A stretch of 64,000 bases of DNA from an uncultured Bacteroidales bacterium (lineage in GTDB: Bacteria; Bacteroidota; Bacteroidia; Bacteroidales; UBA932). The translations under genes and the position numbers were made by a program. The stretch is from NCBI GenBank assembly GCA_900316045.1, contig ONBM01000002.1, positions 1-64,000 on the forward strand, read 5' to 3'. Below the pieces are notes generated by a model. The model was not told where the DNA came from and did not search any database. It worked only from the letters and a program-made list of their open reading frames with translations. Positions 12,776-62,535 of the stretch are shown here, piece by piece. Numbering within the stretch: the stretch's first letter is position 1; every line of letters starts with the position of its first letter.

Positions 12776-12839
12776 AATATTGAATATGAATTATTTAAAC
12801 ATTGCTCTAAAGATATTCATAATAAATGAATATGCAAAA

Positions 12840-32705: not shown

Positions 32706-33638
32706 TTATGGCAGATAACTGATTACTTTATCCATATCCCTGGATAGTTTGGCCAGTTTCTCCTTGCCGCCTCCTGAGACCTCTGCCGTTATCCAGCCGC
32801 CGGAATACCCTACCTCGCCAACTGCCTTCATTACTGCAGGCCAGTCATCATCGCCTTTCTCGATGTCTACATCGAACCCTTTCCATAGACCCTGTTCATT
32901 CATTTTTTTTATGCTGAATTCTTTTAGATGGAGCTTGACAATCCTCTTATTGAGCGTCTTGATCCACTGCTCCGGCCAACCATAGCGCAAAACGTTGCCG
33001 ATGTCGAACCACCACCCTATGAGAGGGCAGTTGATATCATCCACGAATTGCTTTGCCTCAAGCGGGCTAAGCAAGAAATTATTCCAGACATTCTCAAGGC
33101 CAATCTTGACTCCGGTGCTCTCTACAGCTGGAATCAACTCCTTGATGGCATAAAGCGCCGTATAGTAGGCTTCCTCGTAGGAAGATTCCTTATTGACCAC
33201 GCCTGGAACCACCAGCACAGTATCACCCCCGATTGCCTTAGTGTCCTTTAGGGACTGGGTCACGGACTCCAGTATCTTTTTCCTGACTGCTGGATCAGGA
33301 GACGACAACGGGAGTTTCCAATGGTCCTTGTTCACCGTCGTAGGAAGCTCTATCCCGGATATATCCCTGGCTTTCAGAAGCTCATCGACAGGGAACTCCA
33401 GGGGACTGTTGAACTCAATGCCATCGAATCCGATTTCCTTGACCATTTTGAATTTATCGACCAAGGAGAGCTCGTCCTGAATCATTCCGTATCCCAAAGC
33501 CTTCTTCATTTTTACAGCCTTTGCCGGTTCCTTCTCTCTTGCAAAAGAAGAGATGTTCTCGGCAGAAACGAGTCCCGGGGCTGCCACCATGCCCGTAGTC
33601 AGCACCGTGGCTGATTTGATGAAATCTCTGCGTCTCAT
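32706..33638 (-). CDS. sugar phosphate isomerase/epimerase-like TIM-barrel protein, Tat-exported
   Basis: A 310-residue xylose-isomerase-like TIM barrel (AP_endonuc_2 family). The N-terminus MRRRDFIKSATVLTTGMVAAP carries a twin-arginine signal, so the enzyme should be folded in the cytoplasm and exported. Barrel motifs: EIGFDGIEFNSPLEFP, VKIGLENVWNNFLLSP, WWFDIGNV and KLHLKEFSIK. The Glu/Asp/His metal site of the fold is inferred from GLEN and FDIGN. Relatives in PULs with Gfo/Idh dehydrogenases take part in keto-sugar chemistry or C-glycoside cleavage; the exact reaction is not readable. It ends the susC-susD-dehydrogenase-isomerase operon. A 38-base relic of this gene is at 40752-40789. Confidence 0.87.
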   Translation of the reverse strand: MRRRDFIKSATVLTTGMVAAPGLVSAENISSFAREKEPAKAVKMKKALGYGMIQDELSLVDKFKMVKEIGFDGIEFNSPLEFPVDELLKARDISGIELPTTVNKDHWKLPLSSPDPAVRKKILESVTQSLKDTKAIGGDTVLVVPGVVNKESSYEEAYYTALYAIKELIPAVESTGVKIGLENVWNNFLLSPLEAKQFVDDINCPLIGWWFDIGNVLRYGWPEQWIKTLNKRIVKLHLKEFSIKKMNEQGLWKGFDVDIEKGDDDWPAVMKAVGEVGYSGGWITAEVSGGGKEKLAKLSRDMDKVISYLP

Positions 33639-33650
33639 GGATTCCGTCGC

Positions 33651-34988
33651 TTAAAGACCAGGGATTGCCACCGGAAGATCATACTTCGTATCCAAAGTAA
33701 GATCCTCTGGGAAGAATTTCTCATCCGAGCAGAGAGCTTGCTCCATTGTCACTTCCTGCCCGGTGTAAGCAGACATCCTGGCTGCCAGCGCGACAAGATT
33801 CGACCGAGCCGCCCAGTCGAAGTCATTAATGAGAGTTTTGTTGCGGATAGCAGCGAAAAGTTCGTCGTGTTCTTGCTGGTACATGCTCTTCACCTTGGCG
33901 TTCTTGTAGGCATTGGCATCAGTGAACTTGAAGGTGTCGTCATATTTCCAAGGATTTTTTCCGGTAATATAATGCTGTCCGTTCAAGCAATCTACTACGC
34001 ATTTCCCATCCTCACCGACGAACTCCACTCCGTAGGAATGAGCCACGTTATTCTGTTGTTTGCAGCTGAAATAGGCCTTGGTTCCATCCGGATACTCAAA
34101 TTTCGCCCCGAAATGGTCGTACACGTTGCCGAATTTAGGATCGGTTCGCTTAATCCTGCCGCCAGTCGCCACAACTCTTGAAGGGAGCGTGTCATTCATG
34201 CCCCACTGCATGAGGTCAACGCTATGGATTGCCTGCTCGACGATATGGTCTCCTGAAAGCCAGTTATAGTAGAGCCAGTTCCTGAGCTTGTATTCCATGT
34301 CGGTCCAGCCGCTCTTGCGTTCATGGAACCACAATTCACCTGAGTTGTTGCTTGCTTCGACCGCAAGAATCTTACCGATGCTTCCATCTAATAGCCTGGA
34401 GAATGTCTCTCTCTTAGGTATATGATATCTCCAGCAGAAGCCAGACATCAATTCCGTGCCTTGAGCCTTTGCTTTTTGAGCCGCCGCTATTACCCTCCTC
34501 ATGCCGGGTCCATCGACCGCAAACGGCTTCTCGCAGAAGATGTGCTTTTTTGCATTGACGGCATACTCAAGATGAGCCGGCCTGAAGCATGGCGGCGCTG
34601 CCAGGATTATCACGTCCACATCGGAATCAATCAGTTTCCTGAAGGCATCCAGCCCGACGAATTTATGGTCTTTCGCAACTTGGACTTTCTTAGGGAATAG
34701 CTTCATCAGGTAATCGTATGAATTGTCGAGCTGATCCTTGAATGCATCAGCCATCGCTGACAGAACCACATTCTCATCGGCATTCAAGGCCTGTTCAGCA
34801 GCCCCCGATCCGCGGCCACCACAACCAATAAGGCCAACTTTCAGAGTGTTGCTGTTTCCTGTCCACGCACCTGACCTCGTTCCGGTCACGGCTTCCGCCG
34901 CAATTATGTCGCCAAGGCCACTGTTAGCCGAAATCATTGTTCCGACAGTCGCCATTCCGGCTGTCCGTAAAAAATCTCTTCTTTTCAT
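33651..34988 (-). CDS. Gfo/Idh/MocA-family oxidoreductase, Tat-exported
   Basis: A 445-residue NAD(P)-dependent sugar dehydrogenase-like protein. The N-terminus MKRRDFLRTAGMATVGTM is a twin-arginine signal, implying export with the nucleotide already bound. Rossmann motif VGLIGCGGRGSGAAEQA (about 50-66), catalytic Lys in IFCEKPFAVDG, and the second-domain EQAIHSVDLMQW with the His usually used in catalysis. It lies 24 bases after susD and 12 bases before the isomerase. By analogy with periplasmic family members it may oxidise a glycan hydroxyl to a ketone; how the cofactor is reoxidised is unknown. Confidence 0.92.
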   Translation of the reverse strand: MKRRDFLRTAGMATVGTMISANSGLGDIIAAEAVTGTRSGAWTGNSNTLKVGLIGCGGRGSGAAEQALNADENVVLSAMADAFKDQLDNSYDYLMKLFPKKVQVAKDHKFVGLDAFRKLIDSDVDVIILAAPPCFRPAHLEYAVNAKKHIFCEKPFAVDGPGMRRVIAAAQKAKAQGTELMSGFCWRYHIPKRETFSRLLDGSIGKILAVEASNNSGELWFHERKSGWTDMEYKLRNWLYYNWLSGDHIVEQAIHSVDLMQWGMNDTLPSRVVATGGRIKRTDPKFGNVYDHFGAKFEYPDGTKAYFSCKQQNNVAHSYGVEFVGEDGKCVVDCLNGQHYITGKNPWKYDDTFKFTDANAYKNAKVKSMYQQEHDELFAAIRNKTLINDFDWAARSNLVALAARMSAYTGQEVTMEQALCSDEKFFPEDLTLDTKYDLPVAIPGL

Positions 34989-35012
34989 AATCTATCTCTA
35001 TATTGAAATGCA

Positions 35013-36959
35013 TTAATCATAATTAGGATTCTGCTGGAGAGCAGGGTCACGATTAATCTCCTCCTTCGCGATAGGCAACCAGTAAGCACAACCGTTGGAG
35101 TTCCAGCTCCTTTCATCCGTCATCGTAGTCGTGTCCCAGTAAACGATAGTCACTCCGTCAGCGAAATGATTTATGTAAGTAGGCGAGACATTAAAGACAT
35201 TCTCTTCGGCGATCATCCATTTGCGGATCATGAACCAACGGTCTCCCTCTCCCATCATCTCTATCTGCCTCTCGTGACGGTAATATTCGCGAGCCTCCTG
35301 CTGTGTGCAGCTTGTGGATTTGCTTGGCAAACCGGCCCGATTGCGAACCATGTTGACATACCTCATTCCCTCGGCGACTTCACCGAGTTCAATGCACGCC
35401 TCGGCGTAATCGAGCAATACCTCGGCATAACGGATTTCCATCCAAGAGTTAGTGTTGCTATGAGCCTCGGCATTCTCAATCTCCGGGTCAAGCATTTTCC
35501 TGAGATAATACCCTGTCTTAGTACCATTCCAGGCCTGCTTCGAAGCGCTGCGAGAATCAACGCCACCAATCTTGACGGCAGTACCCTCACCGAAATCATG
35601 AATTGTTTTCAAATCGCTATCCAGATACGATGCTCCATTTGTCGCAGTGTAATGAGAACCGATGTCAATAATGTTAGAGGCAGTCTCTCGATTTGCCCAT
35701 GTCGCTCCATCATAAAGAATTGACGCATAAAACCTGGCCTCTCGCCCATTGTAAGGATTCCTCTCTGGGTCTGCGGCGAGCTGCTCAGCAGTCCAAGCCC
35801 TTACATTATTGTCGCCTGGCTTATATTTATCCCATTGGAACGGGGTTCCATCCGCCATTTCGTACTTGCGGACAAGGTTCTCGGTAGGGCCATTGTTCCC
35901 CCAGCAGCTGTATCCGTTAGGACCCCACCAAAGGTTATTCCAGGCTGTGTTCCCGACTTGGTCAAGATACTGTACTCCGAAAATAGCCTCATCGTTCCAC
36001 TCACCTTTTTGTAAGAATATGCCAGCATAATTATCAATGTAGCCTTGGAAATCGACATCGGACATGTCGGCTGACGGCTCTCCTTCCTTGTACTGCGCCA
36101 AGGAATAGGTTCCATACTTGCCATCTATGACATCTTTTGCGGCTGTTTTAGCCGCACGTAGCCTTTCTTCACGAGAGCCACTTGAGAAGTGCACCAAGTC
36201 ATTGCCAGCATTGAATGTTCCGTTCATCAATTCCCCGGTCACGAAACTCAGAAGTCTCGACTTCAATGCACCGGCGGCGCCTTTTGTCGCACGGCCTTGG
36301 TCAATGCCCGACTTGTCAGGAAGCCCGGCGATGGCCTTCTCCAGATCTTTGAGTATGAAATCCACTGTCTCTTGTAAAGTAGAACGCGTCACATTCGTGA
36401 AGTCGTCTTTCAGCGAGAATGGTTTGTCCATCAATACGACACCGCCATAGCTTCTGAGCAGGTTCGTATATTCATAAGCTCTAAGGAAATAAGCTTCTGC
36501 CTTTATCTGACTGAGTTTTGCCTCTTCAGACGAATTCGATGTAGGAACATCGTCTGCGCCTCCAAGCAGAGTGTTGATGCTTTGGATATCACGATATAGG
36601 ACAGGCCATGTCAGCCAGCCATAATAACTTGGCCAATTCGGATAATTGAACATGCCCAAATTGCTCGGAGAGAGTGTATTTTTCAGAAACACTACGCTAC
36701 CTGCCCGATGGATGTTGAGAGTCTCGTCTGTCGAGGAACTGAGCAAATCCTCCCTCATCCCCAAGACGGAACCATCGTTCCCTCCCAGTTGGTCATAACA
36801 TTCGTAAAGATATGCTTCCAGCAGGTTGATATCCTGGAATACGTTGTCCTGCGTGAAGGAATTAACTGATTCTTTGTCAAGCACATCACCCGTGCATGAT
36901 GACAAAGCCATTGCAAGCATTGCAGCAAAACTCAATATTGTGTATTTAAACTTTTTCAT
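35013..36959 (-). CDS. SusD/RagB-family surface glycan-binding lipoprotein (PUL 2)
   Basis: A 648-residue lipoprotein with lipobox MALSSC (Cys22) and the SusD helical fold: EAKLSQIKAEAYFLRAYEYTNLLRSYG near 170, and a C-terminal region with EYYRHERQIEMMGEGDRWFMIRKW. Partner of the SusC directly upstream (38 bases). It binds the incoming glycan on the cell surface; the ligand is unknown. Confidence 0.95.
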   Translation of the reverse strand: MKKFKYTILSFAAMLAMALSSCTGDVLDKESVNSFTQDNVFQDINLLEAYLYECYDQLGGNDGSVLGMREDLLSSSTDETLNIHRAGSVVFLKNTLSPSNLGMFNYPNWPSYYGWLTWPVLYRDIQSINTLLGGADDVPTSNSSEEAKLSQIKAEAYFLRAYEYTNLLRSYGGVVLMDKPFSLKDDFTNVTRSTLQETVDFILKDLEKAIAGLPDKSGIDQGRATKGAAGALKSRLLSFVTGELMNGTFNAGNDLVHFSSGSREERLRAAKTAAKDVIDGKYGTYSLAQYKEGEPSADMSDVDFQGYIDNYAGIFLQKGEWNDEAIFGVQYLDQVGNTAWNNLWWGPNGYSCWGNNGPTENLVRKYEMADGTPFQWDKYKPGDNNVRAWTAEQLAADPERNPYNGREARFYASILYDGATWANRETASNIIDIGSHYTATNGASYLDSDLKTIHDFGEGTAVKIGGVDSRSASKQAWNGTKTGYYLRKMLDPEIENAEAHSNTNSWMEIRYAEVLLDYAEACIELGEVAEGMRYVNMVRNRAGLPSKSTSCTQQEAREYYRHERQIEMMGEGDRWFMIRKWMIAEENVFNVSPTYINHFADGVTIVYWDTTTMTDERSWNSNGCAYWLPIAKEEINRDPALQQNPNYD

Positions 36960-36997
36960 ATTGACTGATTGTAAATAATAAACATCCTTCAGCTGAA

Positions 36998-39900
36998 CTA
37001 GAAAGTAATATTTAGACCGATTGAATAGTTCTTCATCGCAGGGTAACCTTGAGGGTTAGCCGTCTCAGGATCGTAATGTCGCTGCGCAGAGTAAAGCAAC
37101 GCCACGTTATATCCGGTCAGCATGATCGTGGCTCCGGAGATGTTGAACTTCTCCAACAATGGCTTTGGAAGCGAATAGCTCAGGGTGATGTTCTTGAGGC
37201 GGAAATATGCCATATTGTCGTACCAGTAAGTGTTGTTGTGACTGTTGTAAGTCCAGTACTGGTCGGCGCGGCTCCAAGGACGAGGATTGTTGGACATATT
37301 GTTTTTTGGCGTCCAGTAATCCTTCGTCATCCATTTGAACACATTCATGCCGGTTCCTCTGTTGCCGTAAACTGCGCTGACGTAAAATGTTCCCTGCCCT
37401 TGGCCAAGGATAGAGAGAGCCCAGTTCTTCCACGAGAGGTTAACGTTGATGCCGTAGAAGAGTTCTGGCGCGTCAGTTTTGTGAAGGTATATTCTGTCAT
37501 CGCTATTGATCTTGCCATCTTTGGACACATCTTCGAAGATGAGGTCTCCAGGCTTTGCTCCCTCCCAGTGAGGATAGTTGTCAACCTCATCCTGAGTATG
37601 GAAAACACCGATAGCCTTATACACCAAGGCAGAGCCATACGGATGTCCGGTCTGCTTCTGCCATTCTACGGACTGTGCCGGCTCGTCCATGAACACGACT
37701 TTGTTTCTCGACCAGCTGAGGTTGCCGGAAATGTCCACGTTGAGGTTTCCGAACTGCTTCGTGAACCCACCTTCAACCTCGAAACCTCTGTTGTCCACCT
37801 TGCCGATGTTCTCATCCGGCAGGGTGAGGCCAGTGAAATTAGGAACTGAGGCGTTTCTGGTAATGAGAATGTCCCTGCGCTTGTTGTAGAAGAACTCGGT
37901 GTTCAGCCAGAGCATGTTTTTCAGGAACTTGGAGTCGAAGCCCCAGTTATACGTCGTCTGGGTCTCCCAAGTGATGTTCGGGTTTGCGACAACCGACTGA
38001 TAAATCCTGGTCATGACGTTCTTGTTCGCCCCGAAAGTAGGCCCAGAGGCCAATGCGAACTTGTTGACGTACTGGAACGGATCGCCAGGATCCATTCCCA
38101 TCTTTCCTGCCGTGAAGCGTAGCTTGAAGTAATCGATGGCTGAGAGGTTGTTCTTCCAGAACGGTTCCTCAGATGCACGCCAGGCAAGAAGTACTGCAGG
38201 GAAGTTGCCCCACCTCTCGTTTGAAGGGAACTTAAGGGATCCGTCGCGCCTGAATATGAACTCGAACAGATATTTCTCTTTGTAGTTGTAATTCAGACGA
38301 CCGATGAACGACTTACGGGCGTAGATTGACTCCGTGCCGGAGTTATTCTTGTCTTTCTCGCCTCCAGCATTCAGTATCTCGATGAGGTCGGAGACAAAGT
38401 ATTTCCTGAAAGCCGAGAAGTCGGAATCCAGATCGTTGTACTGCTCGTATGCAGCAAATACGTTGAAATTGTGATTCCCGAATGTCCTGCCGTAGTTGGC
38501 GCTCGCCGTGTAGGTGTATTTCTTTATGTAGTTGTTTTTTTGATTTAGCTGAGGATTGTCGTATCCGTTCTTACTAGGAATAAGCACGGCGCCTTCGTTG
38601 GTGATGTATCCATTCGATCCCTTTTTGCTGTTCGCCACATCGAGGGTGTAGAGAGTCCACGGTTTGTTGAATTCCTTATAGTTAATGTGATCGACGTCAT
38701 AATTGAAAGATCCGGAAATCGTGAGCCCTTTTATCATAGGAGGAGTAATGTCCAGTTGGAAGTTAGTCTGATCCTTGTGAGAGTCGGTTTTCCTGTAGCC
38801 GGCTGCATAAGAGGTGTTGACCACAGGGTTCACGCCGCCCTCAAACGCCGGACCAGGCTCGCCTGTCGGCCAGTAATCGGCTACGGTCGGAACGACCATG
38901 GATGCCCAGCCGAACAATTGACTCACATCAATCGTAGGGTATTTCTTCTTGGAATACAGACCGCTGTACTGGGCTGTAACCTTCACCCAGTCCTTGAGCA
39001 GCTTAACATCGAACTTGGCCCTGAAGTTATACTGCTTATAAGTGGTCGAGGAATGAGAGTAGATGCCGGACTCGTTCTTGTAGCCTCCAGATATGAAGTA
39101 GTGCATTTTCTCCGTTCCTCCGTTCACGCTCACGTTGTAGCGTTCGTTATGGGTCCAGTTCCTCACGAGAGATTTCATCCAGTTCGTGTTCGGATGCTGC
39201 CATGGATCAGCGCCACTCTCGTAGAGAGCGATGTCATCGTCGGAATACAGTCTAGCAACGCCTTCGTAGTCTTGAAGATCGCTGACATAACGTGCGTACT
39301 CAGGAGCGTTCGCCGCCTCAGGCATGATGGTCGGCTTCGAGAAACCCTGCGTATATTGCATATTCACGGTCGGCTTGTGTTCGCCTCCATTCTTGGTGGT
39401 AATAAGAATGACACCGTTTGCAGCACGAGATCCATAGATGGCCGCGGATGCGTCCTTAAGCAACGAGACGTTGGCTATGTCATTAGGATCAATCTCATAT
39501 AGACTCCTATCAGGGATTCCATCAATCACGATGAGCGGACCAAGATCAGCCTTTTTCCCGAACGAGGAACGTCCCCGGACGTTAATCTGGGCAATGTCGT
39601 TTCCAGGTTCTCCTGTGGTCTGCCTGATTTGAGTTCCGGACAACTGCCCATTCAATGCATTTGAAACATCGAACGCCGCAGACTTAGTGAGTTTCTCACC
39701 TTTAACTGAAGATATCGCCCCGGCCACAGCCTCTTTCTTCTGGGTGCCATATCCAACAAGAACCACTTCCTGCAGAGTCTCTGTGTCTTCATTCAGAACG
39801 ACGTCAATAGTCTGGCTTTCCCCGACGATGATTGTTTTCGTGATGTAGCCTATGCAAGAGACTTCCAATGTCGCGCCTTCCTGAATGCGAAGAGAGTATT

Positions 39901-40114
39901 TTCCATCGACATCCGTGACAGCACCCGTCGAAGTTCCCTTGACTAAGACGCTTGCGCCGATGACCGGCAATCCAGTTGCATCGGAAACCGTGCCTGTGAT
40001 GGTTTTCTGTTGAGCAAAAGCATTGGCAGTGCCTATCACGCAGAATAGTAGCAGCAAGGTGACGCCCTTCAATAAGACATGCCCTTGATGTCGAGCATTA
40101 TTAAATAAATTCAT
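36998..40114 (-). CDS. SusC-family TonB-dependent outer-membrane transporter (PUL 2)
   Basis: A 1038-residue transporter: signal peptide (to about 34, AFAQQ), carboxypeptidase-regulatory-like domain (about 36-115), plug from VVLVGYGTQKKEAVAGAIS, and SusC signature DASAAIYGSRAANGVILIT. The barrel ends YSIGLNITF. First gene of susC-susD-dehydrogenase-isomerase. No exact -7 element was found in its upstream region. Confidence 0.96.
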   Translation of the reverse strand: MNLFNNARHQGHVLLKGVTLLLLFCVIGTANAFAQQKTITGTVSDATGLPVIGASVLVKGTSTGAVTDVDGKYSLRIQEGATLEVSCIGYITKTIIVGESQTIDVVLNEDTETLQEVVLVGYGTQKKEAVAGAISSVKGEKLTKSAAFDVSNALNGQLSGTQIRQTTGEPGNDIAQINVRGRSSFGKKADLGPLIVIDGIPDRSLYEIDPNDIANVSLLKDASAAIYGSRAANGVILITTKNGGEHKPTVNMQYTQGFSKPTIMPEAANAPEYARYVSDLQDYEGVARLYSDDDIALYESGADPWQHPNTNWMKSLVRNWTHNERYNVSVNGGTEKMHYFISGGYKNESGIYSHSSTTYKQYNFRAKFDVKLLKDWVKVTAQYSGLYSKKKYPTIDVSQLFGWASMVVPTVADYWPTGEPGPAFEGGVNPVVNTSYAAGYRKTDSHKDQTNFQLDITPPMIKGLTISGSFNYDVDHINYKEFNKPWTLYTLDVANSKKGSNGYITNEGAVLIPSKNGYDNPQLNQKNNYIKKYTYTASANYGRTFGNHNFNVFAAYEQYNDLDSDFSAFRKYFVSDLIEILNAGGEKDKNNSGTESIYARKSFIGRLNYNYKEKYLFEFIFRRDGSLKFPSNERWGNFPAVLLAWRASEEPFWKNNLSAIDYFKLRFTAGKMGMDPGDPFQYVNKFALASGPTFGANKNVMTRIYQSVVANPNITWETQTTYNWGFDSKFLKNMLWLNTEFFYNKRRDILITRNASVPNFTGLTLPDENIGKVDNRGFEVEGGFTKQFGNLNVDISGNLSWSRNKVVFMDEPAQSVEWQKQTGHPYGSALVYKAIGVFHTQDEVDNYPHWEGAKPGDLIFEDVSKDGKINSDDRIYLHKTDAPELFYGINVNLSWKNWALSILGQGQGTFYVSAVYGNRGTGMNVFKWMTKDYWTPKNNMSNNPRPWSRADQYWTYNSHNNTYWYDNMAYFRLKNITLSYSLPKPLLEKFNISGATIMLTGYNVALLYSAQRHYDPETANPQGYPAMKNYSIGLNITF

Positions 40115-40786
40115 AAGATTTAGTGTTATTAATTTGGGATAGCAATTTAAGAATATTCAAAATAACATGCAATATTGTCCTGCCCTCTTTTCAAAATCCA
40201 CCACATGGAGATCATTGTCTTATTTGCATGAACGAAAAAAACGACAAGGGATGACGTGGTGTGTCGTTCGGGATGAAGTAGAGAGTCGTTCAGGATGATG
40301 GAGCGAGATTTCGCAAAGTGCTGTCGGAGTATGTCCTTCCGGGGGGTCTGCAAATGGGGGGCGGTCGACAACGTGCCTCTTGGGATGCCTCGATGTCGAG
40401 ACATGCCCTTCCCTGCGCACTTCTGTGCAGCCTGCCTCGACGGCGTTTTGCGAGTCACTTTTTCCGAACGGTTTATACGTATGCAATTCTTTATTGCTTC
40501 AGCATCGACAAGGTTTGGTGAAATCTTGAAGAGAGGTTGTGATTATTCACAATCGAAGGCAACGGTGACATTCATTATAAGTGCCGAGAGCACATATTCC
40601 CATTGCCAACCCCCGTTCTGGAAACCGGGTGTGCGACGCAGTCCTTCATTACAAGCCAGCCGGTGGCACTATACCCTTGCCGATAAATGTAATTCTCTCG
40701 CTCTTCTGGGCGAGGGCATGGATGAATCCTTTGTGACCACAGCGACCACAGCCTCGCCAACTGCCTTCATGACAGCAGGCCAGTCA
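40115..40786. other. 672-base intergenic stretch without a credible gene
   Basis: It should hold the PUL 2 promoter, but no exact TAnnTTTG is visible. Contents: two imperfect 22-base direct repeats beginning GTCGTTC (40263 and 40285) that resemble the CGTTCAGGATGA elements common in intergenic DNA, GC-rich small palindromes around 40390-40450, and a relic of the isomerase gene at the right edge. A plus-strand open frame at 40295-40798 is not protein-like. Confidence 0.5.
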
Positions 40787-40789
40787 TCA
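40752..40789 (-). pseudogene. relic of the TIM-barrel isomerase gene
   Basis: Thirty-eight bases match 32813-32850 at 36 positions, in the same orientation, encoding DDWPAVMKAVGE. It overlaps the stop codon of the next gene (40787-40789) by three bases. Coding homology does not extend clearly beyond it. Confidence 0.75.
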
Positions 40790-41380
40790 GAAATTTAGCG
40801 CAATACCGAAGCCCTTCGAAGATGTGCTGATATATGGTTGACGACGAGACCCATGAAGACGACCATTATAGTCATCTGCGATCCATTCCAGTCTCTTCTT
40901 TCCGATGACTAGCAATGGAATACCAACGTCAATGCATGTGCTTCCAGCCAATCCAGCAAGTAGTCCCGCGGAATACAGGCCATAATCGTAGTATTCGCCA
41001 TCGTCATATTCCATGGAGTTCAAGCCCGCTATCATCATCACAATCCCAGCGACTGCGACAGGAGCTCCGATCCAGACTAGGGTCTTTCCGCTACGTAGCT
41101 GCTTGCGTGCGCCTACGTAAGTGTCTTCGTAAATCTGATTCCCTATATAGAAACGAATGTCTTCTGGTTTTATTACGTTCCCTTCGGAATCGACCAAGTC
41201 ACCTCCACGGTATCTTATCTGGCCGGGGACGATGTTCGGCTCGGAACCTTGTCGGGACAACATTTCCGCGGCCGCAGAAGGATTGGAATATGCTGTAGGG
41301 ATGATCTGGGCAGATACGTTCGTGGCTGAGAAAGCAAATATGCCAGCAAAGATTGATAAAATAAAGTTGAGTTTAGACAT
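40787..41380 (-). CDS. exported membrane-associated protein of unknown function
   Basis: A 197-residue protein from MSKLNFILSIFAG. Signal peptide ending near NVSAQ; a soluble segment with SRQGSEPNIVPGQIRYRGGDLVDSEG-type text; then two hydrophobic stretches (TLVWIGAPVAVAGIVMMIAGL and LLAGLAGSTCIDVGIPLLVIG); and an aromatic end GIALNF like an outer-membrane protein. The frame opens 7 codons earlier, but this ATG starts the signal peptide. Not recognised as a named family. Its stop codon lies inside the isomerase relic, so the present 3' end may itself come from that rearrangement. Confidence 0.7.
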   Translation of the reverse strand: MSKLNFILSIFAGIFAFSATNVSAQIIPTAYSNPSAAAEMLSRQGSEPNIVPGQIRYRGGDLVDSEGNVIKPEDIRFYIGNQIYEDTYVGARKQLRSGKTLVWIGAPVAVAGIVMMIAGLNSMEYDDGEYYDYGLYSAGLLAGLAGSTCIDVGIPLLVIGKKRLEWIADDYNGRLHGSRRQPYISTSSKGFGIALNF

Positions 41381-41409
41381 TTGAGAAAAAATTGTTGTCA
41401 ATACTGCCT

Positions 41410-41417
41410 CAAAGATA
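41410..41417 (-). promoter_or_regulatory. -7 promoter element of the 41 kb membrane-protein gene
   Basis: TATCTTTG on the minus strand, 29 bases before the chosen ATG at 41380. This also supports that start. Confidence 0.5.
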
Positions 41418-41544
41418 GATAATATTTATCGATTCAGCATAAAAATGCTACTTTTTAACCAACAATCCTCGCGCATGAAAAAGGTGGCTAATCAGTCAGA
41501 TTGACTCATTAGTCACCCAGCAAGTAATTATAATCCGAGATTTT

Positions 41545-42642
41545 TTACCTGAACAGGCTCATGATATACACGCAGGCGCGGGCGGCGTGCATCGGATATT
41601 TCCTGAACGCATTGGCATTCGCGCTGTCGGATAAATGAGCCTTGATGTAAGCCCAGAGCGAAAACGCATTATCTGCTCCTTCAGCGAAGCACTGATATTT
41701 CCATCCACACAGATTAGCGATTACAGCTTCCGCCTGAACATAAGGAACCATAGTTGTGTACAACTTGCCATCTGCATCAATGCCAAAAGCAACGTGCCCG
41801 TCTGCCTGCTGCCCTTCCATGCCATACATCAGCAGCCTTGTGGTTGGATCCTTCACCATATTCACGACATCCATGTCCTCGGTAGCATATGCGGCATCAA
41901 GCAACGCCCACGATGCCTCAAGATCAAGACCATACTGAATTCCCATATTGAGATTATTCCAGTCTTTATCCATTTTTGGAACCATGTGGCCTGTCCTAAC
42001 ATCATAGAACTTGTCTGTAATTACAGTGAGCAGAGCAGTAAGGTCGTACCTCAGGGCCTCGTCTTTCCAAACCCGGTAAAGCGTAGAGAGACCCTCGGCA
42101 AGATACACGTGAGCAACTGCATCTTTTGTGGCATCTTTCTTCTCGAACTCTCTCGAGAGCTTAAAATAATAACCGCCTTTTTCCTCGTCCCTGAATTCCT
42201 TCCTGACGATTTTATAAAGGTTGACGGCCGATTTCAGCGCCTCATCATCCTTAGTCGCGGCGTAGAATTCGCTAAGAGCATATATTGATAAAGCTTGATT
42301 GGCAAGGGTGCAGTCGGTGTCAACCCTTTCGCCATTTTTATCGACTGTGGAATAGACTCCTCCGAATTTATGATCGATGAAATTCTTCAAGAAATAGTCA
42401 TTAGCGTTGATCGCTGGCATGAGATATTCCTTCTTCTTGAAAAGCCTGTAAGCCGTAGAATAAGCCCATAGGATCCTTGCATTCAGCTGAAGGCTCCGGG
42501 GAGCCTCCCTATCTGGCTCGCCGTCAGATCCGAGATCGCCGAAAAATCCACCCTGAGGGTCCTGCATCACGGACCAGAATTTAAGAATATCCCACTGAAG
42601 GACTTCTTTCGCTTCTTTGATAAGATTATCTGTTCTAATCAT
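41545..42642 (-). CDS. AGE-family 2-epimerase (cellobiose 2-epimerase / N-acylglucosamine 2-epimerase type)
   Basis: A 365-residue (alpha/alpha)6-barrel protein without a signal peptide, thus cytoplasmic. The start MIRTDNLIKEAKEVLQWDIL and REAPRSLQLNARILWAYSTAYR match cellobiose 2-epimerases, as do ANQALSIYALSEFYAAT and GLDLEASWALLDAAYATED. The WWPQAE stretch common in cellobiose epimerases is changed to VPYVQAE, so substrate specificity may differ. The upstream part of the frame overlaps the DUF1080 gene and is not used. It is second in an operon with DUF1080 (13 bases apart). Likely epimerises or isomerises a sugar released by the nearby glycan systems. Confidence 0.82.
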   Translation of the reverse strand: MIRTDNLIKEAKEVLQWDILKFWSVMQDPQGGFFGDLGSDGEPDREAPRSLQLNARILWAYSTAYRLFKKKEYLMPAINANDYFLKNFIDHKFGGVYSTVDKNGERVDTDCTLANQALSIYALSEFYAATKDDEALKSAVNLYKIVRKEFRDEEKGGYYFKLSREFEKKDATKDAVAHVYLAEGLSTLYRVWKDEALRYDLTALLTVITDKFYDVRTGHMVPKMDKDWNNLNMGIQYGLDLEASWALLDAAYATEDMDVVNMVKDPTTRLLMYGMEGQQADGHVAFGIDADGKLYTTMVPYVQAEAVIANLCGWKYQCFAEGADNAFSLWAYIKAHLSDSANANAFRKYPMHAARACVYIMSLFR

Positions 42643-42655
42643 ATAATATGATATA

Positions 42656-43942
42656 TTACAATGTCTTAACATGAATATTACGCCAGCGCACCTTAATGCC
42701 GCCACCATCGTGAATCTGCAGCGCGATCCGGCCATGGCCTGCGCCAATCTTAGCATCGTGAATGTCCGTCATAGGCTCGCCATTAAGCCAAGACTGCAGA
42801 TGATCCCCCTCCAGACGGATGCGCATAGCGTTCCATTGGCCCTCTTTAAGAATGTTTTCTTTCTCGTCTGGAATTTGATAGAGCCAGCCGCGGCCGTATG
42901 ACTCATAAACTCCGCCAGTATCGTTGCCCTTTGGTGCAACCTCAACCTGCCAGCCATGAACTGTGGTGCCATCAACAGTAGAGCGGATGAACACGCCAGA
43001 ATTCCCATTTGCCTCTTGCTTGAACTCGAGCGTCAGGTCGAAATCGTCATAATAGTCTTCTGTAGCAAAATAGCCGTACTGCTTATCAGGACCGCTCTCG
43101 CAAACGAGGTAGCAGCTATCGTCCACATACCAAAGCTCCGTGCCGTAATTAATCCACCCGGTAAGATCCTTCCCATTGAAAAGATCTTTTTCTACAGGCT
43201 TTGAAGGCAGTTCCTTTATCTTAATGTTACGAAACCATGCAGGATATCCGTGATCCTGGAGGCAGATATGACCCTTCGGCGACATGCCATATTCAGGAGC
43301 ATCCTTCCACTTGCCGCTCTCTTTGCGCTGGCGCCAGTCCGGGGTCCAGGCATCGAACTCGACTGTCACCTTGCCATTCAAAAGATAAGTTACATGACCA
43401 TTATCGAATATAATCTCGGACTGATTCCATTGCCCAGCAGGCTTCATATTCCTAGCCTCCAGATCTGGAACATACATGGCATAATCAACTCCGCAGCGCT
43501 GCCAGTCTTCCAGCTGATAGCCGTCGTTCATCTCAGCAAAATTATCATCATCTATTAGCTGGTATTCAGGCCCCGTGATGTAAGGAACCTTGAAATCCGG
43601 ACGCTCCACCACATGATAAAGCATTCCGCTGTTGCCGCCTTTGCTGATCTTCCATTCCCATTTAAGATCGAAGTTAGCATATTCTTTATCAGTCACTATG
43701 TAACCGCTGGCATCGCCGCCTTGGCCTTCTGCCTCTATGGCGCCATCAACGACAGTCCATGGTCCAGTAAGTTCTGTTCCGTTATAATCCCTCCATCCGC
43801 TAAGTGTCTGGCCGTCAAACAACAACTGCCATCCATCTTGCTGTTCTTGAGCTGTCAGCTCATTTGGCTTTTGCCCGCCACAAGACACGAAAGCCACGGC
43901 TGCAGCAGCCATGGCCCCTAAAATAATAAACGACTTTTTCAT
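42656..43942 (-). CDS. two-domain DUF1080 (3-keto-disaccharide hydrolase-like) lipoprotein
   Basis: A 428-residue protein with signal peptide and lipobox VAFVSC (Cys about 22), then two DUF1080 jelly-roll domains. Domain 1 (about 30-220) reads DGWQLLFDGQTLSGWRDYNG. Domain 2 (about 240-428) reads KDLFNGKDLTGWINYG and ends GRIALQIHDGGGIKVRWRNI. DUF1080 proteins act on 3-keto-glycosides or serve as concanavalin-like binding/lyase folds. It is first in a two-gene operon with the epimerase and has a strong promoter. It lies just upstream of PUL 2 on the same strand. Confidence 0.9.
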   Translation of the reverse strand: MKKSFIILGAMAAAAVAFVSCGGQKPNELTAQEQQDGWQLLFDGQTLSGWRDYNGTELTGPWTVVDGAIEAEGQGGDASGYIVTDKEYANFDLKWEWKISKGGNSGMLYHVVERPDFKVPYITGPEYQLIDDDNFAEMNDGYQLEDWQRCGVDYAMYVPDLEARNMKPAGQWNQSEIIFDNGHVTYLLNGKVTVEFDAWTPDWRQRKESGKWKDAPEYGMSPKGHICLQDHGYPAWFRNIKIKELPSKPVEKDLFNGKDLTGWINYGTELWYVDDSCYLVCESGPDKQYGYFATEDYYDDFDLTLEFKQEANGNSGVFIRSTVDGTTVHGWQVEVAPKGNDTGGVYESYGRGWLYQIPDEKENILKEGQWNAMRIRLEGDHLQSWLNGEPMTDIHDAKIGAGHGRIALQIHDGGGIKVRWRNIHVKTL

Positions 43943-51939: not shown

Positions 51940-53007
51940 TTATTCGGAAATATAAGCGAGAGTCATGTGCTTAGGGTTATGAGAGCCATTATCGGCGAAG
52001 AATTTCAATTTGTGATCCCCAGCCGGCAAGTTAATCTGGAATGAATCATCATCGATGAATTGTCCCCAGTTGCCGCTGCCCTGAATCGGCATGGTTTCGG
52101 TAGCCTTGACTCCGTCGATTTCAAAATGATACTTGCCCTGAGAGCCGCCGCTACCAGATGAAGCGTTTATGGTAATCTTGTAGGTTCCCGCATCTTTCAC
52201 GCTTATGGAATAGATGTACCATTCGCCACTGGCAAGATAGCCGATGTTGCCGCCACCTTCGATGGTCACCATTGAGCTTGTAGGGTCACCATGCTGGGCG
52301 CGGTAAGTGTTCCCGCCACCGCCGCCGGTGTCGTAGAACGCAACGTTCATTCCTCCGCGGTCGAAATCCCTGAACCAGATGACGGTAGGCTCATCTTTGC
52401 TGATAACGAACGGATGCCCCTTCTCGAACGGGAAAGTAACCTGAACGTCAAAGGTCACAAACTTGGCGAACGAGCCCTTGCGGTAGTGGATTTTCGTAGT
52501 TCCCGTGCCTATGCCCTTGACGACTCCGGACTGGCTTACTCTGGCGACATTCTCGTCATCAGACCACCAGCTGAAATCCGTGGTTGGAACGTCGTTGGCA
52601 TCCGATGGGACCATCGACACCGGAATGGTGACAGTGGCACCGATTGCAAGCTCGATCAGGCTGTCGCACTTCATGGCAATGTCGGTCAGGGCAACCTTTC
52701 TGCTTACGTAGACCTCAGTCTCGAACGACATGTCTCCCGATTCGCAAAAAATGGACGCAGAACCCTGCTTTATGGCTTTGACCAAGCCTGAATTGTCGAC
52801 CGTGGCAATGGATTCGTCGCTCGTAGACCATTTGAACGTAAGACTGGACGGACTAGCCGTCAGCTGAATCTCGTCCCCTTCAAACAACGTAACGGAACTG
52901 TGATCCACTGTGATGGTTGGGTAAACATCCGTCCTTTGGAAGTTGTCGCATGAAGCGGAAAGCGCCAACAAAGAGACCAACGATATATTCAATATTATTT
53001 TTTTCAT
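51940..53007 (-). CDS. Big2 + CBM6-like surface glycan-binding lipoprotein (PUL 3)
   Basis: A 355-residue lipoprotein with lipobox SASC (Cys20). Two bacterial Ig-like (Big2) domains span about 30-105 (WSTSDESIATVDNSGLVKAI) and 110-190 (WSDDENVARVSQSGVVKGIG). The C-terminal 150 residues resemble a CBM6-type carbohydrate-binding module (GGGNIGYLASGEWYIYSISV, AGTYKITINASS, LPAGDHKLKFF). It occupies the last position of the PUL 3 operon, where surface glycan-binding proteins are usual. Its gene ends convergently with nothing; the protease gene lies beyond on the same strand. Confidence 0.85.
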   Translation of the reverse strand: MKKIILNISLVSLLALSASCDNFQRTDVYPTITVDHSSVTLFEGDEIQLTASPSSLTFKWSTSDESIATVDNSGLVKAIKQGSASIFCESGDMSFETEVYVSRKVALTDIAMKCDSLIELAIGATVTIPVSMVPSDANDVPTTDFSWWSDDENVARVSQSGVVKGIGTGTTKIHYRKGSFAKFVTFDVQVTFPFEKGHPFVISKDEPTVIWFRDFDRGGMNVAFYDTGGGGGNTYRAQHGDPTSSMVTIEGGGNIGYLASGEWYIYSISVKDAGTYKITINASSGSGGSQGKYHFEIDGVKATETMPIQGSGNWGQFIDDDSFQINLPAGDHKLKFFADNGSHNPKHMTLAYISE

Positions 53008-53016
53008 GTCTGCCTC

Positions 53017-53991
53017 CTACTTTATTGTTTCTATGATAGTGAAACCCTCGTCCACCTCCTTATCCTCCGAATAAAGAAACCTCGTCTCCTCCCGCATCTC
53101 ATATACATCATTTCCTATCTGATACTTGTAATGCAGCAGGAAGGTCTTATAGGTATTGTACCCATCGTCTATGATGCCGTACACGTTAGGATATTCAGGG
53201 TCATCGTCCAGCTGCGTCACTTTAATATCCCGGTAAGGCTTCAGCGTAACCTTGTGATAGCCTTTCGCATCGGCCGCGGCATCGATGTACGCTATCATCG
53301 CCTTTGCCTCCAAGGTGTGCTTGTCTTTGCTGAAAGTCTCATTCCCGGGCATCATCCTCACGCTGTTCGCAGTCCAGCAATGAATCGTCTTGGTTCCAGG
53401 CATATTGATAGGAGACCCATCCGGCAAGAGTTTTCTGTTTCCCACCATCTGATAACCTATTCCGCTGGAATTAGACCATTGATTCTTTATTGCTATCTTA
53501 AGCAGAAGGGAACTCTTGTCTGGATGAAGTTCGGCGCCATCATAGGAAAGGACTCTCACAGGAATGATGTAATCCTTGTCTGGAGACAGGCCTGCGGGGT
53601 GAATCGTGACAGGGATAGTGCCAAGCACCTCGCCAGATTTTATTACGCATGTCATGCTGGATATCTCGTATTTATCAGCAGGCATGACAACTGCATATTT
53701 CTCGACATCTACGTCATAGTTCGCCTTATTGTACTCATCTACGAGAGTGGAATCCAAGACGATGTTTATTTTGACGTCATTCTTTGGAGCCTTCGTGCCT
53801 CCCATCGATAATGACATGTACGTCGTGGTTGTCTCATAGTGAAGGCTGACCGTCATCTTCTTAGTGTTGTCAGACTCGCTCACGAATCCGAAGATGTTCT
53901 TGTACTGCTCTTTCTCGAACACCTCCTTGTCGTTGCAAGAAACGATGGAGAATGCTGCCAGAGCCGCTAATATTATGCATTTGTGTTTCAT
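53017..53991 (-). CDS. DUF1735-family surface lipoprotein (PUL 3)
   Basis: A 324-residue lipoprotein with lipobox SIVSC (Cys19). The N-terminal half is DUF1735 (BT_3987-like: KNDVKINIVLDSTLVDEYN, YEISSMTCVIKSGE, YIIPVRVLS). The C-terminal half resembles DUF4361 (DAKGYHKVTLKPYRDIKVTQ). Such proteins commonly accompany SusCD pairs and are thought to bind glycans. It sits 9 bases from the next gene and 19 from susD. Confidence 0.85.
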   Translation of the reverse strand: MKHKCIILAALAAFSIVSCNDKEVFEKEQYKNIFGFVSESDNTKKMTVSLHYETTTTYMSLSMGGTKAPKNDVKINIVLDSTLVDEYNKANYDVDVEKYAVVMPADKYEISSMTCVIKSGEVLGTIPVTIHPAGLSPDKDYIIPVRVLSYDGAELHPDKSSLLLKIAIKNQWSNSSGIGYQMVGNRKLLPDGSPINMPGTKTIHCWTANSVRMMPGNETFSKDKHTLEAKAMIAYIDAAADAKGYHKVTLKPYRDIKVTQLDDDPEYPNVYGIIDDGYNTYKTFLLHYKYQIGNDVYEMREETRFLYSEDKEVDEGFTIIETIK

Positions 53992-54010
53992 GATTCAATA
54001 CGTGTTGATG

Positions 54011-56011
54011 TTAGCTTTCCCAACCCGGGTTCTGGTCGCAAGAAGGGAGCTTGCGGATTTCGCTCAGTGGAATAGGAAGCAGGTAGAGTTTCTTATGAAC
54101 CAGGCGAGCTCCGATTCTGGAAGTATTCGGAACTGTTCTTTGATAGAAATTCTCCTTAGAGCCATCCACGTTCATTCCCATGATTGTTTCATTCTCTGTT
54201 TCCTCGTAAATTCCCCACCTGCGGACGTCGAAGTAACGCAGCCCTTCGTGCAGGAATTCCTTCATTCTTTCGATTTCAAGGATTTTCTGGAAGGTTTCCT
54301 CGTCTGCAAGATCATTATTGCTGATTCCCGGCATCCCGGAACGGTGGCGCACGAGGTTAAACGCCGACTTTATCTCATTCAGGTCCCGCGACACCGAATA
54401 AGTCTCGTCGCCGAGCTTTATCTCATAAGCCTTTGTCAGATGATTGAGACTCTCGGCATACATGAGCAGTATGTCAGCGTACCTTATGATAGGATAGCCT
54501 TTATCCATTCTCCTGGCGTTATCTCCGTCCCAGGCATCATTAGGATGAATGTATTTCACAATGACATAGCCCGTAGGGCTGTAGTCCGTCGCAGAATTCT
54601 GCTTTCCGTTAGGGGAGTCATAGTAATATGTCACCGTCTGGTTGTACTTCCCAGACATGGTGGTGGAAGACATCGGCCAAAATCTCTCCGAAAACCCTAC
54701 GCAGGCATAGAAACGCATCTCCCTGTTGTCGTACATGTTATAGACGCCGGCATTGAGCCTGTAGCCCGAGAAAGACTTCTGCTCGTTGGTGAAACCCGAT
54801 TCCGAGTACGGATAGGCTTCGCTGGAATTGTCTATGGAGCGTCCGTCGTACATGGAATAGCTATCCACTATTTTCTGCGTAAGGGCCATTCCTCCCCATC
54901 CTCCGAAGCTGATAGGGAAACTCATCCGGGTATTGTCAACAAGGGACTGGCTTTTCCTTCCCCAGACATATTCAGGATTGGTGGCTATCACCGCCTCCCC
55001 CGTGAACTGCTCCGAATACGACCTCAGGTGGTCGATCCCTGCAGCTCCCACAGGATAAGGCTCGTAAAAGTCCGGATCGGAAGTCACGCCCTCAGGCAAA
55101 GGCGGAGTCTGCGTATCTTCCTGCACGGTAAAGAGGCTATACATCGGAGCCCCGTTCCTTTTCATGTCCATCACTCTCTTGCAAGCAGCAGCGGCAATAG
55201 CCCAGCGCTCTTCGTCATATTCATCGGTGGTGACGTATTTTACTCGGTCTGTTTTCCTGTACCAATTGCCAAAGCACCTTCTGGCTGCTTCTCCTCCATT
55301 CCATAGAGGGCTGGCGTAATAAGTTCTGATCCTTGCGATCAGTCCGTATGCGGCTCCCTTTGTTGGCCTTCCGAATTCCATAAGAGGATAGGTTTCAGGA
55401 AGATATTTAGCTGCCTCCTCAAGCTCGCTGCAGATATATTCCACAGTCTCTTCATTCGTGGCTCGAGCCCTGTCATATTCTCCCAGATCAAGGTTAGAAG
55501 GTATTTCCTCGTCCCCTACCAAGATTACCGGCCCATACGCAAGCCAAAGCTTATAGTAAGCATAGGCACGAATGAACCTGTTCAGGGAAAGAAGTTCAGC
55601 CCTGTCCTGAGCGGTGAGATCTTTAGCTTCATCTATCCTTGCGAACACAGTATTCGCTCTTCTGATGCACTGGTAGCTTGTCGTCCACACGTTGGAGAAG
55701 GAGTATGGGCTGCTGGCAGAGATTTCTCCGAGAACAAGCCTCATTCCATTGTAGCCATGCTGAGTGCCGTACATAGTAAAGGCCTCGTCTGTCGCAAGAG
55801 GTCCGGGAAAATCAGAATCCTGATAGAGAGAGCCTTCGTCACGCAGATCCCCTGTCATGCCCCAGATATATGCCTGGACATTCCTCTTGTTGGCGAATAC
55901 TTCGTCAATCTTTATCTCGTCGGAGAAATAGTCATCTATGCTCAGATAGTTGCAGGAAGCAAATCCGGCCGACAAGATCGAGGCTAAAATAACGTATGAT
56001 ATTCTTTTCAT
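54011..56011 (-). CDS. SusD/RagB-family surface glycan-binding lipoprotein (PUL 3)
   Basis: A 666-residue lipoprotein with lipobox GFASC (Cys20) and SusD features: ELLSLNRFIRAYAYYKLWLAYG (about 140) and ILEIERMKEFLHEGLRYFDVRRW near the end. It lies 13 bases after susC. It is somewhat longer than average but otherwise normal. Confidence 0.95.
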   Translation of the reverse strand: MKRISYVILASILSAGFASCNYLSIDDYFSDEIKIDEVFANKRNVQAYIWGMTGDLRDEGSLYQDSDFPGPLATDEAFTMYGTQHGYNGMRLVLGEISASSPYSFSNVWTTSYQCIRRANTVFARIDEAKDLTAQDRAELLSLNRFIRAYAYYKLWLAYGPVILVGDEEIPSNLDLGEYDRARATNEETVEYICSELEEAAKYLPETYPLMEFGRPTKGAAYGLIARIRTYYASPLWNGGEAARRCFGNWYRKTDRVKYVTTDEYDEERWAIAAAACKRVMDMKRNGAPMYSLFTVQEDTQTPPLPEGVTSDPDFYEPYPVGAAGIDHLRSYSEQFTGEAVIATNPEYVWGRKSQSLVDNTRMSFPISFGGWGGMALTQKIVDSYSMYDGRSIDNSSEAYPYSESGFTNEQKSFSGYRLNAGVYNMYDNREMRFYACVGFSERFWPMSSTTMSGKYNQTVTYYYDSPNGKQNSATDYSPTGYVIVKYIHPNDAWDGDNARRMDKGYPIIRYADILLMYAESLNHLTKAYEIKLGDETYSVSRDLNEIKSAFNLVRHRSGMPGISNNDLADEETFQKILEIERMKEFLHEGLRYFDVRRWGIYEETENETIMGMNVDGSKENFYQRTVPNTSRIGARLVHKKLYLLPIPLSEIRKLPSCDQNPGWES

Positions 56012-56024
56012 GTTCGTGATTTTT

Positions 56025-59000: not shown

Positions 59001-59117
59001 CGGCAGTGGGCCATCCTGGTCATAAACCGTTCCTGCCAGCCTGTAAGTCTGGGCATGGGCTTGAAAAGATCCTATCATCAATATGATAGAAATCAGGAAA
59101 TATAACTGTTTCTTCAT
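56025..59117 (-). CDS. SusC-family TonB-dependent outer-membrane transporter (PUL 3)
   Basis: A 1030-residue transporter with signal peptide ending QAHAQ, a carboxypeptidase-regulatory-like domain (about 27-100), plug from QVVITALGTTQRKISN and SusC signature DASATAVYGVRGANGVVLIT. The last residue is Phe (QVYLHF), typical of barrels. It lies 11 bases after the IPT/NHL gene in one operon. Confidence 0.96.
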   Translation of the reverse strand: MKKQLYFLISIILMIGSFQAHAQTYRLAGTVYDQDGPLPGVAVIVQGSTVGTMTDDKGHFSIKAQKGDKLIFQMMGFKDIEYIVVKEDTKISITFTETTQELDQVVITALGTTQRKISNLAAVTSIDAKLLDQPTTSISNLLGGRVAGVISSLTSGEPGKNIAEFWIRGIGTFGANSSALVLIDGLEGDINSIDPSDIENFSVLKDASATAVYGVRGANGVVLITTKRGSTDKVRITGRVSTTLSHLRRLPDYVGAYDYATLANEAREVRGEEPLYSNVEMDIIRNNLDPDLYPDVNWQKEIVKNNSWKRAYYVSAQGGAKAAKYFLSLSVNQEDAAYKVDHSSPYAQNVGYDTYGFRSNIDMNLTPTTKLYFGSTGHLAVNRNPGVANTDYIWSAQANIHPLRLPTVYSNGQLPGVGQGAQTSPYVMINRLGKRLDTEFQSKTTVALEQDLGMITKGLRIRAQGAFDYTSWFSESRHVQPELYEAVSRTSTGELVTIKRVSEQAASYNKATNNYRKYHFESTLNYDRLFGKDHRVSGLVYYYMSDDKYSSESVSNMSSIPKRYQGISSRLTYGYSDTYLIDLNFGYTGSENFQKGRRFGFFPSVAVGWVPTQYKFMKDNLPWLNFFKVRASYGTVGNDRISSKRFPYLTIVNRGSTSPWGSASAETLWETYTGADNLKWEVATKFDLGFEGTLFVDKVDFVLDFFNDVRDGIFQERQQVPLYVGLMSRPYSNIGKMRSYGADGNVSFKQKIGSDMNLTLRANFTYSKNDVKNWEESNPAYPYQERSGYPYGVVRGYYALGLFKDQQDIDTSPVQTFGEYRPGDIKYRDVNGDGRIDSDDRVPIAYGLSSSGAIVPILMYGFGGEFQYKKLSIGVLFKGTGNSDFFYGGAGYIPFASGRLGNVLAQAMEYKNRWIPKDYAEKHGIPLEQAENPDAIYPRMTYGSSSNNTQTSTFWKGNGRYLRLQEITINYNWSAKFMKKIGLQSADLQLVGNNLAVWSPVKLFDPEQAQYSGRAYPIPVTFTFQVYLHF

Positions 59118-59128
59118 TAGAATAATCT

Positions 59129-60460: not shown

Positions 60461-60534
60461 TGGTTAAAAAATTAGTGGTGTCATTAATATTTTTATGTGG
60501 TTCTACTAATGTAATATACGCCATTCATTGCCTC

Positions 60535-60564
60535 CAAAGATAACACTTTCCCCCGATTTCCCAA
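60535..60564 (-). promoter_or_regulatory. promoter of the PUL 3 operon
   Basis: On the minus strand TTG (60562-60564) and TATCTTTG (60535-60542) are 19 bases apart. The leader to the ATG at 60460 is about 68 bases. Confidence 0.8.
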
Positions 60565-60598
60565 AAACGTTTTTAGAATTAGCTCTACGCATGAAGAT

Positions 60599-60662: not shown

Positions 60663-60684
60663 TGCCTAGCTTGGACTGCGGTTG

Positions 60685-62523: not shown

Positions 62524-62535
62524 ATTCCTGAAAAT

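Follow-up and report, generated by a model that had tools for sequence, protein, structure and literature searches.

A candidate periplasmic 3-keto-glycoside module around an exported Gfo/Idh/MocA and TIM-barrel protein pair in an uncultured Bacteroidales bacterium

Positions 1 to 64,000 of contig ONBM01000002.1 (assembly GCA_900316045.1), from an uncultured Bacteroidales bacterium, were analysed as one window of 64,000 nucleotides. On its minus strand, from position 43942 down to 32706, lie two groups of genes: a SusC-SusD (SusCD) pair followed by a Gfo/Idh/MocA oxidoreductase (GFO) and a TIM-barrel protein (TIM), and, upstream of these, a lipoprotein with two DUF1080 domains (DUF1080x2) followed by an AGE-type protein (AGE). 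An earlier note on this DNA had proposed a periplasmic oxidative (3-keto) glycan-degradation locus, and Pfam and NCBIfam matches identified each of the genes that it had named (Table 1). The locus is real, conserved and probably functional. We lean towards reading it as a 3-keto-glycoside module of the polysaccharide utilization locus (PUL) type that works in the periplasm, with exported enzymes that probably split sugars by oxidation first and not by ordinary hydrolysis. It resembles the known Bacteroides 3-keto-glycoside pathway, with a different dehydrogenase branch.

Export, active sites and gene linkage of the GFO-TIM pair

The N terminus of GFO, MKRRDFLRTAG, is a twin-arginine (Tat) signal. 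The RRxF motif was kept in 47 of 47 GFO orthologues, and the genome, 2.75 Mb in size, encodes TatC at another place (4.8e-62); with both features, GFO is a predicted Tat substrate. Its three Gfo/Idh/MocA domains (PF01408, PF22725 and PF02894) scored over their cut-offs, and E153-K154-P155, E251, H255, D258 and H374 were invariant in 40 GFO sequences, including the lysine of the EKP motif and the His/Asp residues of the family. The predicted structure (pLDDT 82) was nearest to YjhC, RgNanOx, SqgA, DgpA and levoglucosan dehydrogenase (Z 34-35, about 330 residues aligned, root-mean-square deviation [rmsd] 2.7-3.9), with aldose-aldose oxidoreductase and glucose-fructose oxidoreductase (GFOR) also near (Z 31-32).

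TIM begins with MRRRDFIKSAT, likewise a twin-arginine start. The earlier note had ascribed Tat signals to both proteins, and both window copies carry one; that of GFO is conserved throughout, whereas a strict twin arginine was found in only 12 of 41 TIM orthologues, the others having mostly NRKxF or NKRxF, with RK or KR at the same place. Export of both proteins looks conserved from these N termini, and the Tat dependence of TIM is uncertain because so few orthologues keep the strict motif. E182, D212, H237, E286, E75 and H106 were invariant in 32 TIM orthologues. The predicted metal site is of the E-D-H-E type of epimerases and dehydratases, not the histidine site of eliminases. The predicted fold (pLDDT 87) matched UlaE best (Z 27.6, rmsd 2.6, 260 residues aligned) and matched YcjR, a 3-keto-glucoside 4-epimerase, at Z 25.9 (rmsd 2.4, 246 aligned).

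When 84,980 species were scanned, each represented by one genome, about 47 loci were found in which GFO identity was 59-97%; their genomes were of Bacteroidales or Sphingobacterium type. TIM directly followed GFO in about 42 of 48 loci with at least 59% GFO identity, spread over Bacteroidales and Sphingobacteriales, usually 8-25 bp away, and several of the exceptions were cut by contig ends. Many copies of the pair stood behind SusC-SusD, often with an extracytoplasmic function (ECF) sigma and anti-sigma pair, and others stood alone.

The PF06439 score of DUF1080x2, reached over two stretches, lies above the curated cut-off of 26.8 bits, and the lipobox cysteine, C21, is conserved. The histidine of the LQxH motif is kept in both domains (H231 in LQDH and H411 in LQIH), with a putative catalytic role. 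The nearest solved structure is 3u1x (E 4e-64), and 4jqt is a solved relative with two domains. In Phocaeicola oris, SusC-SusD-GFO-TIM-DUF1080x2 form one operon (L045), and DUF1080x2 also stands in the GFO-TIM operon of Mariniphaga anaerophila (L052), Mariniphaga sediminis (L187) and a metagenome-assembled genome (MAG; L061); in a Tannerella MAG (L053) it is a convergent near neighbour of the pair. With the window lineage included, there are about four independent arrangements, against 0.11 expected from random placement by a rough Poisson estimate. Full-length DUF1080x2 (at least 60% identity) was present in 24 of 42 genomes with GFO-TIM and in 8 of 197 genomes of the order sample (Fisher p 3e-15, a value made too small by the relatedness of the genomes). 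In many Proteiniphilum-type genomes, DUF1080x2 is found by itself, surrounded by housekeeping genes.

Similar linkage was found with other Gfo and TIM subfamilies. P. oris has a second DUF1080x2, which shares an operon with SusCD, a further TIM and a Gfo scoring 820 bits against BT_2158_fam (NCBIfam NF058561, "glycoside 3-dehydrogenase"; curated equivalog cut-off 750 bits). In three loci (L194, L195 and L198) the gene after DUF1080x2 encodes a TIM, and in L203, where names were given by eye from N-terminal sequence, a DoxX-like gene comes next, then a Gfo and a TIM. The best case for the three types of protein working together is that DUF1080x2 is paired again and again with Gfo and TIM proteins of different subfamilies, and at the level of gene order the linkage, including that to the BT_2158_fam Gfo of P. 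oris, supports 3-keto chemistry. The earlier note had proposed a survey of whether the gene set is conserved; conservation was found for GFO with TIM, in part for DUF1080x2, and not for AGE outside the genus.

Two further kinds of neighbour were seen beside the pair. A predicted membrane protein of 364-372 aa, similar by eye to NagX/HGSNAT-type transacetylases and with no Pfam match, lies near GFO-TIM in L056, L063, L048 and L055. In four Proteiniphilum-type MAGs (L079, L065, L077 and L101), a HEAT-repeat protein of about 1100 aa with two PF06439 domains (by Pfam for L079) lies downstream of GFO-TIM; these loci also carry further Gfo genes.

A proposed pathway and competing explanations

In the pathway that we propose, SusCD would carry its substrate, a small glycoside or oligosaccharide, through the outer membrane, and Tat-exported GFO, carrying its own NAD(P), would oxidise the C3 hydroxyl. 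The activated 3-keto-glycoside would be cleaved by beta-elimination, most likely through the DUF1080x2 lipoprotein, and TIM, with its E-D-H-E site, would hydrate the 3-keto intermediate or act on it by epimerisation/elimination. The 3-keto sugar would then take the hydride back from GFO, and in this way the cycle could be redox-neutral and yield free sugar for import. Oxidation at C3 followed by elimination, hydration and reduction is known chemistry (PMC11300592, PMC9007349, PMC7676230, PMC10628242, PMC10755693). Its published components include a DUF1080 protein acting as a 3-keto-trehalose hydrolase (PMC9007349), BT2158 as a periplasmic glycoside 3-dehydrogenase (PMC11300592), and eliminase or hydratase steps by TIM-barrel or sugar-isomerase-type proteins (PMC7676230, PMC10628242). 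The oxidative periplasmic module of the earlier note draws support from the GFO-TIM pair and the DUF1080x2 linkage, but not from AGE, which belongs to a separate, older operon and has lost two histidines.

It had also been argued that periplasmic oxidation means that an electron acceptor must exist. This does not follow, since bound NADH can go back to the 3-keto product; should GFO return the hydride in this way, no external acceptor is required. Hydride return by bound NADH is established for GFOR. For NAD enzymes whose action is net-hydrolytic, SqgA among them, it has been proposed (PMC10755693). Just one physical hint was seen of a path by which electrons might reach or leave a Gfo of this kind, and it lies in a sister operon of the same genome, not in that of the window. 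On contig C87, at about 34285-38262 (L239 8286-12263), a cytochrome of the NapC/NirT type, which has four CxxCH motifs and is fused to an FGE/SUMF1-like domain, precedes a Tat Gfo (34% to the window GFO), a TIM, and ResB- and CcsA-like genes. A cytochrome gene followed by a related Gfo was found in five same-genus genomes, the stretch being split in the open reading frame (ORF) calls in G518 and the contig ending within the Gfo in G531. The genome further contains a canonical 3-keto operon on contig C40 (L240 8846-12207), with a BT_2158_fam Gfo (782.9 bits), a DUF1080 lipoprotein close to solved structures of the keto-hydrolase family, and a TIM lipoprotein.

Several observations weigh against the proposed pathway. 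GFO itself scored 26.8 bits against BT_2158_fam, over residues 3-215, and on this score it is not a member of that family but a different dehydrogenase branch, a clade for which no activity or substrate is known. Eighteen of the 42 GFO-TIM genomes were without full-length DUF1080x2 of this type, and GFO-TIM often stands without any nearby DUF1080. In the window lineage, DUF1080x2 belongs to the older neighbouring operon, so its adjacency there may be accidental; the combination with GFO-TIM recurs outside this lineage, in P. oris and Mariniphaga. TIM also differs from the 3-keto-O-glycoside eliminase AtOGE, in which the metal ligands are His132, Asp163 and His189 and the catalytic histidine, two residues after the first ligand, is His134 (PMC10628242), as against Glu182, Asp212, His237 and Glu286 with Val184 in the window TIM. 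Valine occupies this place (E182-N183-V184, matched by strand order) in all 32 TIMs, and TIM is therefore not an eliminase of the AtOGE kind. The E-D-H-E site also serves inosose dehydratase (IolE), so by analogy hydration or elimination of a keto sugar by TIM is possible.

An unlikely but credible alternative is that GFO and TIM form a self-contained epimerisation or rearrangement pair, in which C3 would be oxidised, TIM would epimerise C2 or C4, and GFO would reduce the sugar back. Sugars would then be edited in the periplasm without bond cutting, and DUF1080x2 would be a neighbour with its own job. Consistent with this, TIM has the two-glutamate E-D-H-E site of D-tagatose 3-epimerase and UlaE-type enzymes, its fold is closest to UlaE with YcjR near the top (profile match 6wn6), its best NCBIfam matches were L-ribulose-5-phosphate 3-epimerases, and GFO-TIM stands alone in many loci. 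However, the site is shared with IolE, so that these residues do not decide, and both the recurrent DUF1080x2 linkage and the many members in SusCD operons, which suggest catabolism, argue against a pair that only edits sugars. We consider it very unlikely that the substrates of GFO-TIM are not glycosides but free sugars, polyols or inositols that have been taken up, processed in the manner of IolG and IolE. The best NCBIfam match of GFO was the inositol 2-dehydrogenase IolG (67 of 355 bits), and inositol dehydrogenases were among its profile matches, but all of these matches fall far under the cut-offs, and export with SusCD linkage fits oligosaccharides better.

It also appears improbable that GFO alone is an NAD-dependent oxidoreductive glycosidase of the GH109 or GH188 sort, with a single active site that oxidises, eliminates, adds water and reduces, and with TIM isomerising the released sugar. 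Structures of SqgA (GH188) were among the closest GFO folds (Z 34.5), and Tat-exported GH109 enzymes exist. The invariant K154, E251, H255 and H374 resemble Lys107, Glu189, His193 and His321 of ArSqgA (PMC10755693). However, a BT_2158_fam dehydrogenase of the same genome also has a histidine roughly where H374 lies, so that the residue set is not diagnostic, and GFO had no match to the GH109-specific Pfam domain. Assignment of GFO to GH109 was rejected on this result and on the absence of any GH109 chain among its phmmer and profile matches, although absence from such a list is not proof.

In a sister MAG, UBA1680 (L040 12734-18748), the genes immediately downstream of TIM form a cluster that looks, by N-terminal sequence, sialidase-, NanA-, NanM-, YhcH- and GntR-regulator-like. 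It was treated as a local neighbour, and a sialic acid reading was rejected, because the cluster is not at this place in the window or in L042 and because the phmmer scores of GFO with YjhC (53 bits) and RgNanOx (37 bits) were low, though both are among its closest folds.

Gene layout and history of the locus

SusC, SusD, GFO and TIM form one tight operon, with intergenic gaps of 38, 24 and 12 bp in that order, and the adjacent SusC and SusD with linked enzymes make the locus a PUL. DUF1080x2 and AGE form a separate operon, with 13 bp between the genes. This upstream operon had been described in the earlier note as lying just upstream; it is on the same strand, but the 672-bp gap and the 204-aa gene intervene, which rules out a single operon of all six genes. 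The AGE start was corrected from 42756 to 42642 (MIRTDNL...), the longer ORF overlapping the DUF1080 stop, and the start of DUF1080x2 is 43942 or 43951. ECF sigma and anti-sigma genes adjoin many orthologous loci, but not the window copy. No Bacteroidales -33/-7 promoter was found upstream of SusC; one relaxed match lies upstream of DUF1080x2, at 44050-44021.

Table 1. Features of the locus and the matches that identify them
Feature	Position	Strand	Evidence
TIM: exported AP_endonuc_2 (xylose-isomerase-like) TIM barrel, 310 aa	32706..33638	-	PF01261, E 2e-32
GFO: Gfo/Idh/MocA oxidoreductase with Tat signal, 445 aa	33651..34988	-	PF01408/PF22725/PF02894
SusD-family glycan-binding outer-membrane lipoprotein	35013..36959	-	PF07980, E 3e-52; PF14322
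SusC/RagA TonB-dependent transporter	36998..40114	-	TIGR04056, 900.6 bits (cut-off 368)
672-bp non-coding gap upstream of SusC, splitting the two operons	40115..40786	.	
204-aa protein of no known family, between the two operons	40787..41401	-	No match in Pfam, NCBIfam or PHROG
AGE/cellobiose-2-epimerase-like protein, 365 aa, cytoplasmic	41545..42642	-	PF07221
DUF1080x2: lipoprotein with two 3-keto-disaccharide-hydrolase domains, 428-431 aa	42656..43942	-	PF06439, 291 bits, two stretches

As the earlier note had observed for classical enzymes, no glycoside hydrolase was found inside the interval 32706-43942; the nearest found were the GH127 genes of another PUL, at 60685-63927. This second SusCD locus, at 51940-63927 of the window, encodes a BT_3987-like protein, a CBM6 protein, a TIG/NHL protein and two GH127 genes, one of which lies near the window end and is incomplete.

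AGE is cytoplasmic, as it has no signal peptide. We take H200, H259 and H390 of Rhodothermus cellobiose 2-epimerase (RmCE) to be residues with catalytic roles. In an alignment with RmCE (3wkf), AGE has Leu in place of H259 and Tyr in place of H200, with H390 kept, and so lacks the full set of a catalytic cellobiose 2-epimerase. The DUF1080x2-linked AGE homologues of the genus (L207-L212, L229-L233) have Leu or Val for H259 and Tyr or Phe for H200, as against none of five more distant paralogues. This linked clade was not seen outside the genus, which rules out AGE as part of the conserved set there.

In four same-genus genomes (G408, G550, G518 and G531), the AspS/RsmA region, AGE, DUF1080x2 and an M24 peptidase follow one another with no SusCD-GFO-TIM between them, and the same AGE-DUF1080x2-M24 block is present in G502. 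Of 250 family genomes, only 3 had a close GFO, the window genome among them, and no other genome in the order sample of 198 had one. Because the block occurs without SusCD-GFO-TIM in these relatives, the gene orders are most simply read as the gain of the SusCD-GFO-TIM cassette next to a DUF1080x2-AGE operon that was already there. The 204-aa gene is followed by a 38-bp piece (40752-40789) with 95% identity to a part of the TIM gene (32813-32850 of the window), and in a sister MAG (L041) copies of the 204-aa gene lie on both sides of the cassette (3943-4590 and 12447-13049), as if the cassette had been moved or duplicated by recombination. Base composition gave no signal of foreign origin (G+C 48-50%, window mean 49%).

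Comparison with known systems and implications

The window pair shares with E. coli YcjS-YcjR-YcjQ the combination of Gfo and TIM-barrel proteins acting on 3-keto-glycosides, and YcjR was a top structural match to TIM. Unlike the window locus, the E. coli system is cytoplasmic, has two Gfo enzymes and epimerises. GFOR and the Caulobacter aldose-aldose oxidoreductase are alike in having the Gfo fold (structural matches, as above), a retained cofactor and hydride shuttling between sugars, and GFOR is Tat-exported; in contrast to the proposed pathway, they oxidise C1 and have no TIM partner. The BT2156-BT2160 system of Bacteroides thetaiotaomicron likewise combines a periplasmic Gfo/Idh/MocA dehydrogenase, a DUF1080 keto-hydrolase and a sugar-isomerase-type protein, and uses glycosides without a classical glycoside hydrolase (PMC11300592, PMC9007349). 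It differs in that the window GFO is under the BT_2158_fam cut-off, no BT_2159_fam match was found, the window DUF1080 protein has two domains, SusCD is in the window operon, and the canonical operon sits separately in the same genome (L240). The Lgd levoglucosan pathway (LgdA-LgdB1-LgdB2-LgdC) and the Agrobacterium AtOGE pathway share the order of oxidation, elimination, hydration and reduction and the use of oxidoreductases with sugar-phosphate-isomerase-type proteins (PMC7676230, PMC10628242), whereas no SusCD link has been described for them. The NAD-dependent glycosidases of GH109 and GH188 have the Gfo fold and a redox-neutral 3-keto mechanism (PMC10755693), but are single-enzyme systems, and the window GFO has no GH109 domain match.

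Periplasmic glycoside 3-oxidation is not new here, having been published for BT2158 (PMC11300592), and DUF1080 keto-hydrolases and TIM-barrel eliminases and hydratases have also been published, which weakens claims to novelty. As a speculative extension, which we hold only tentatively, the unstudied branch of exported Gfo and E-D-H-E TIM proteins might be a general periplasmic module for redox sugar processing in Bacteroidota. It would be swapped between PULs and paired with two-domain DUF1080 cleavage enzymes; sister operons in the genus would be wired to a NapC/NirT-type haem cytochrome that couples sugar oxidation to the quinone pool, and an AGE-fold enzyme with a rewired active site would act on the keto-sugar product.

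Bacteroidota genomes contain many exported Gfo and TIM proteins whose annotation goes no further than oxidoreductase or sugar phosphate isomerase. If GFO-TIM is a module that processes glycans oxidatively, a class of loci is overlooked wherever PULs are annotated by their glycoside hydrolases and lyases alone. The SusC-SusD-GFO-TIM-DUF1080x2 operon of P. oris, which is cultured, together with the cytochrome-linked sister operon, makes the order of the reactions and the fate of the electrons directly testable.

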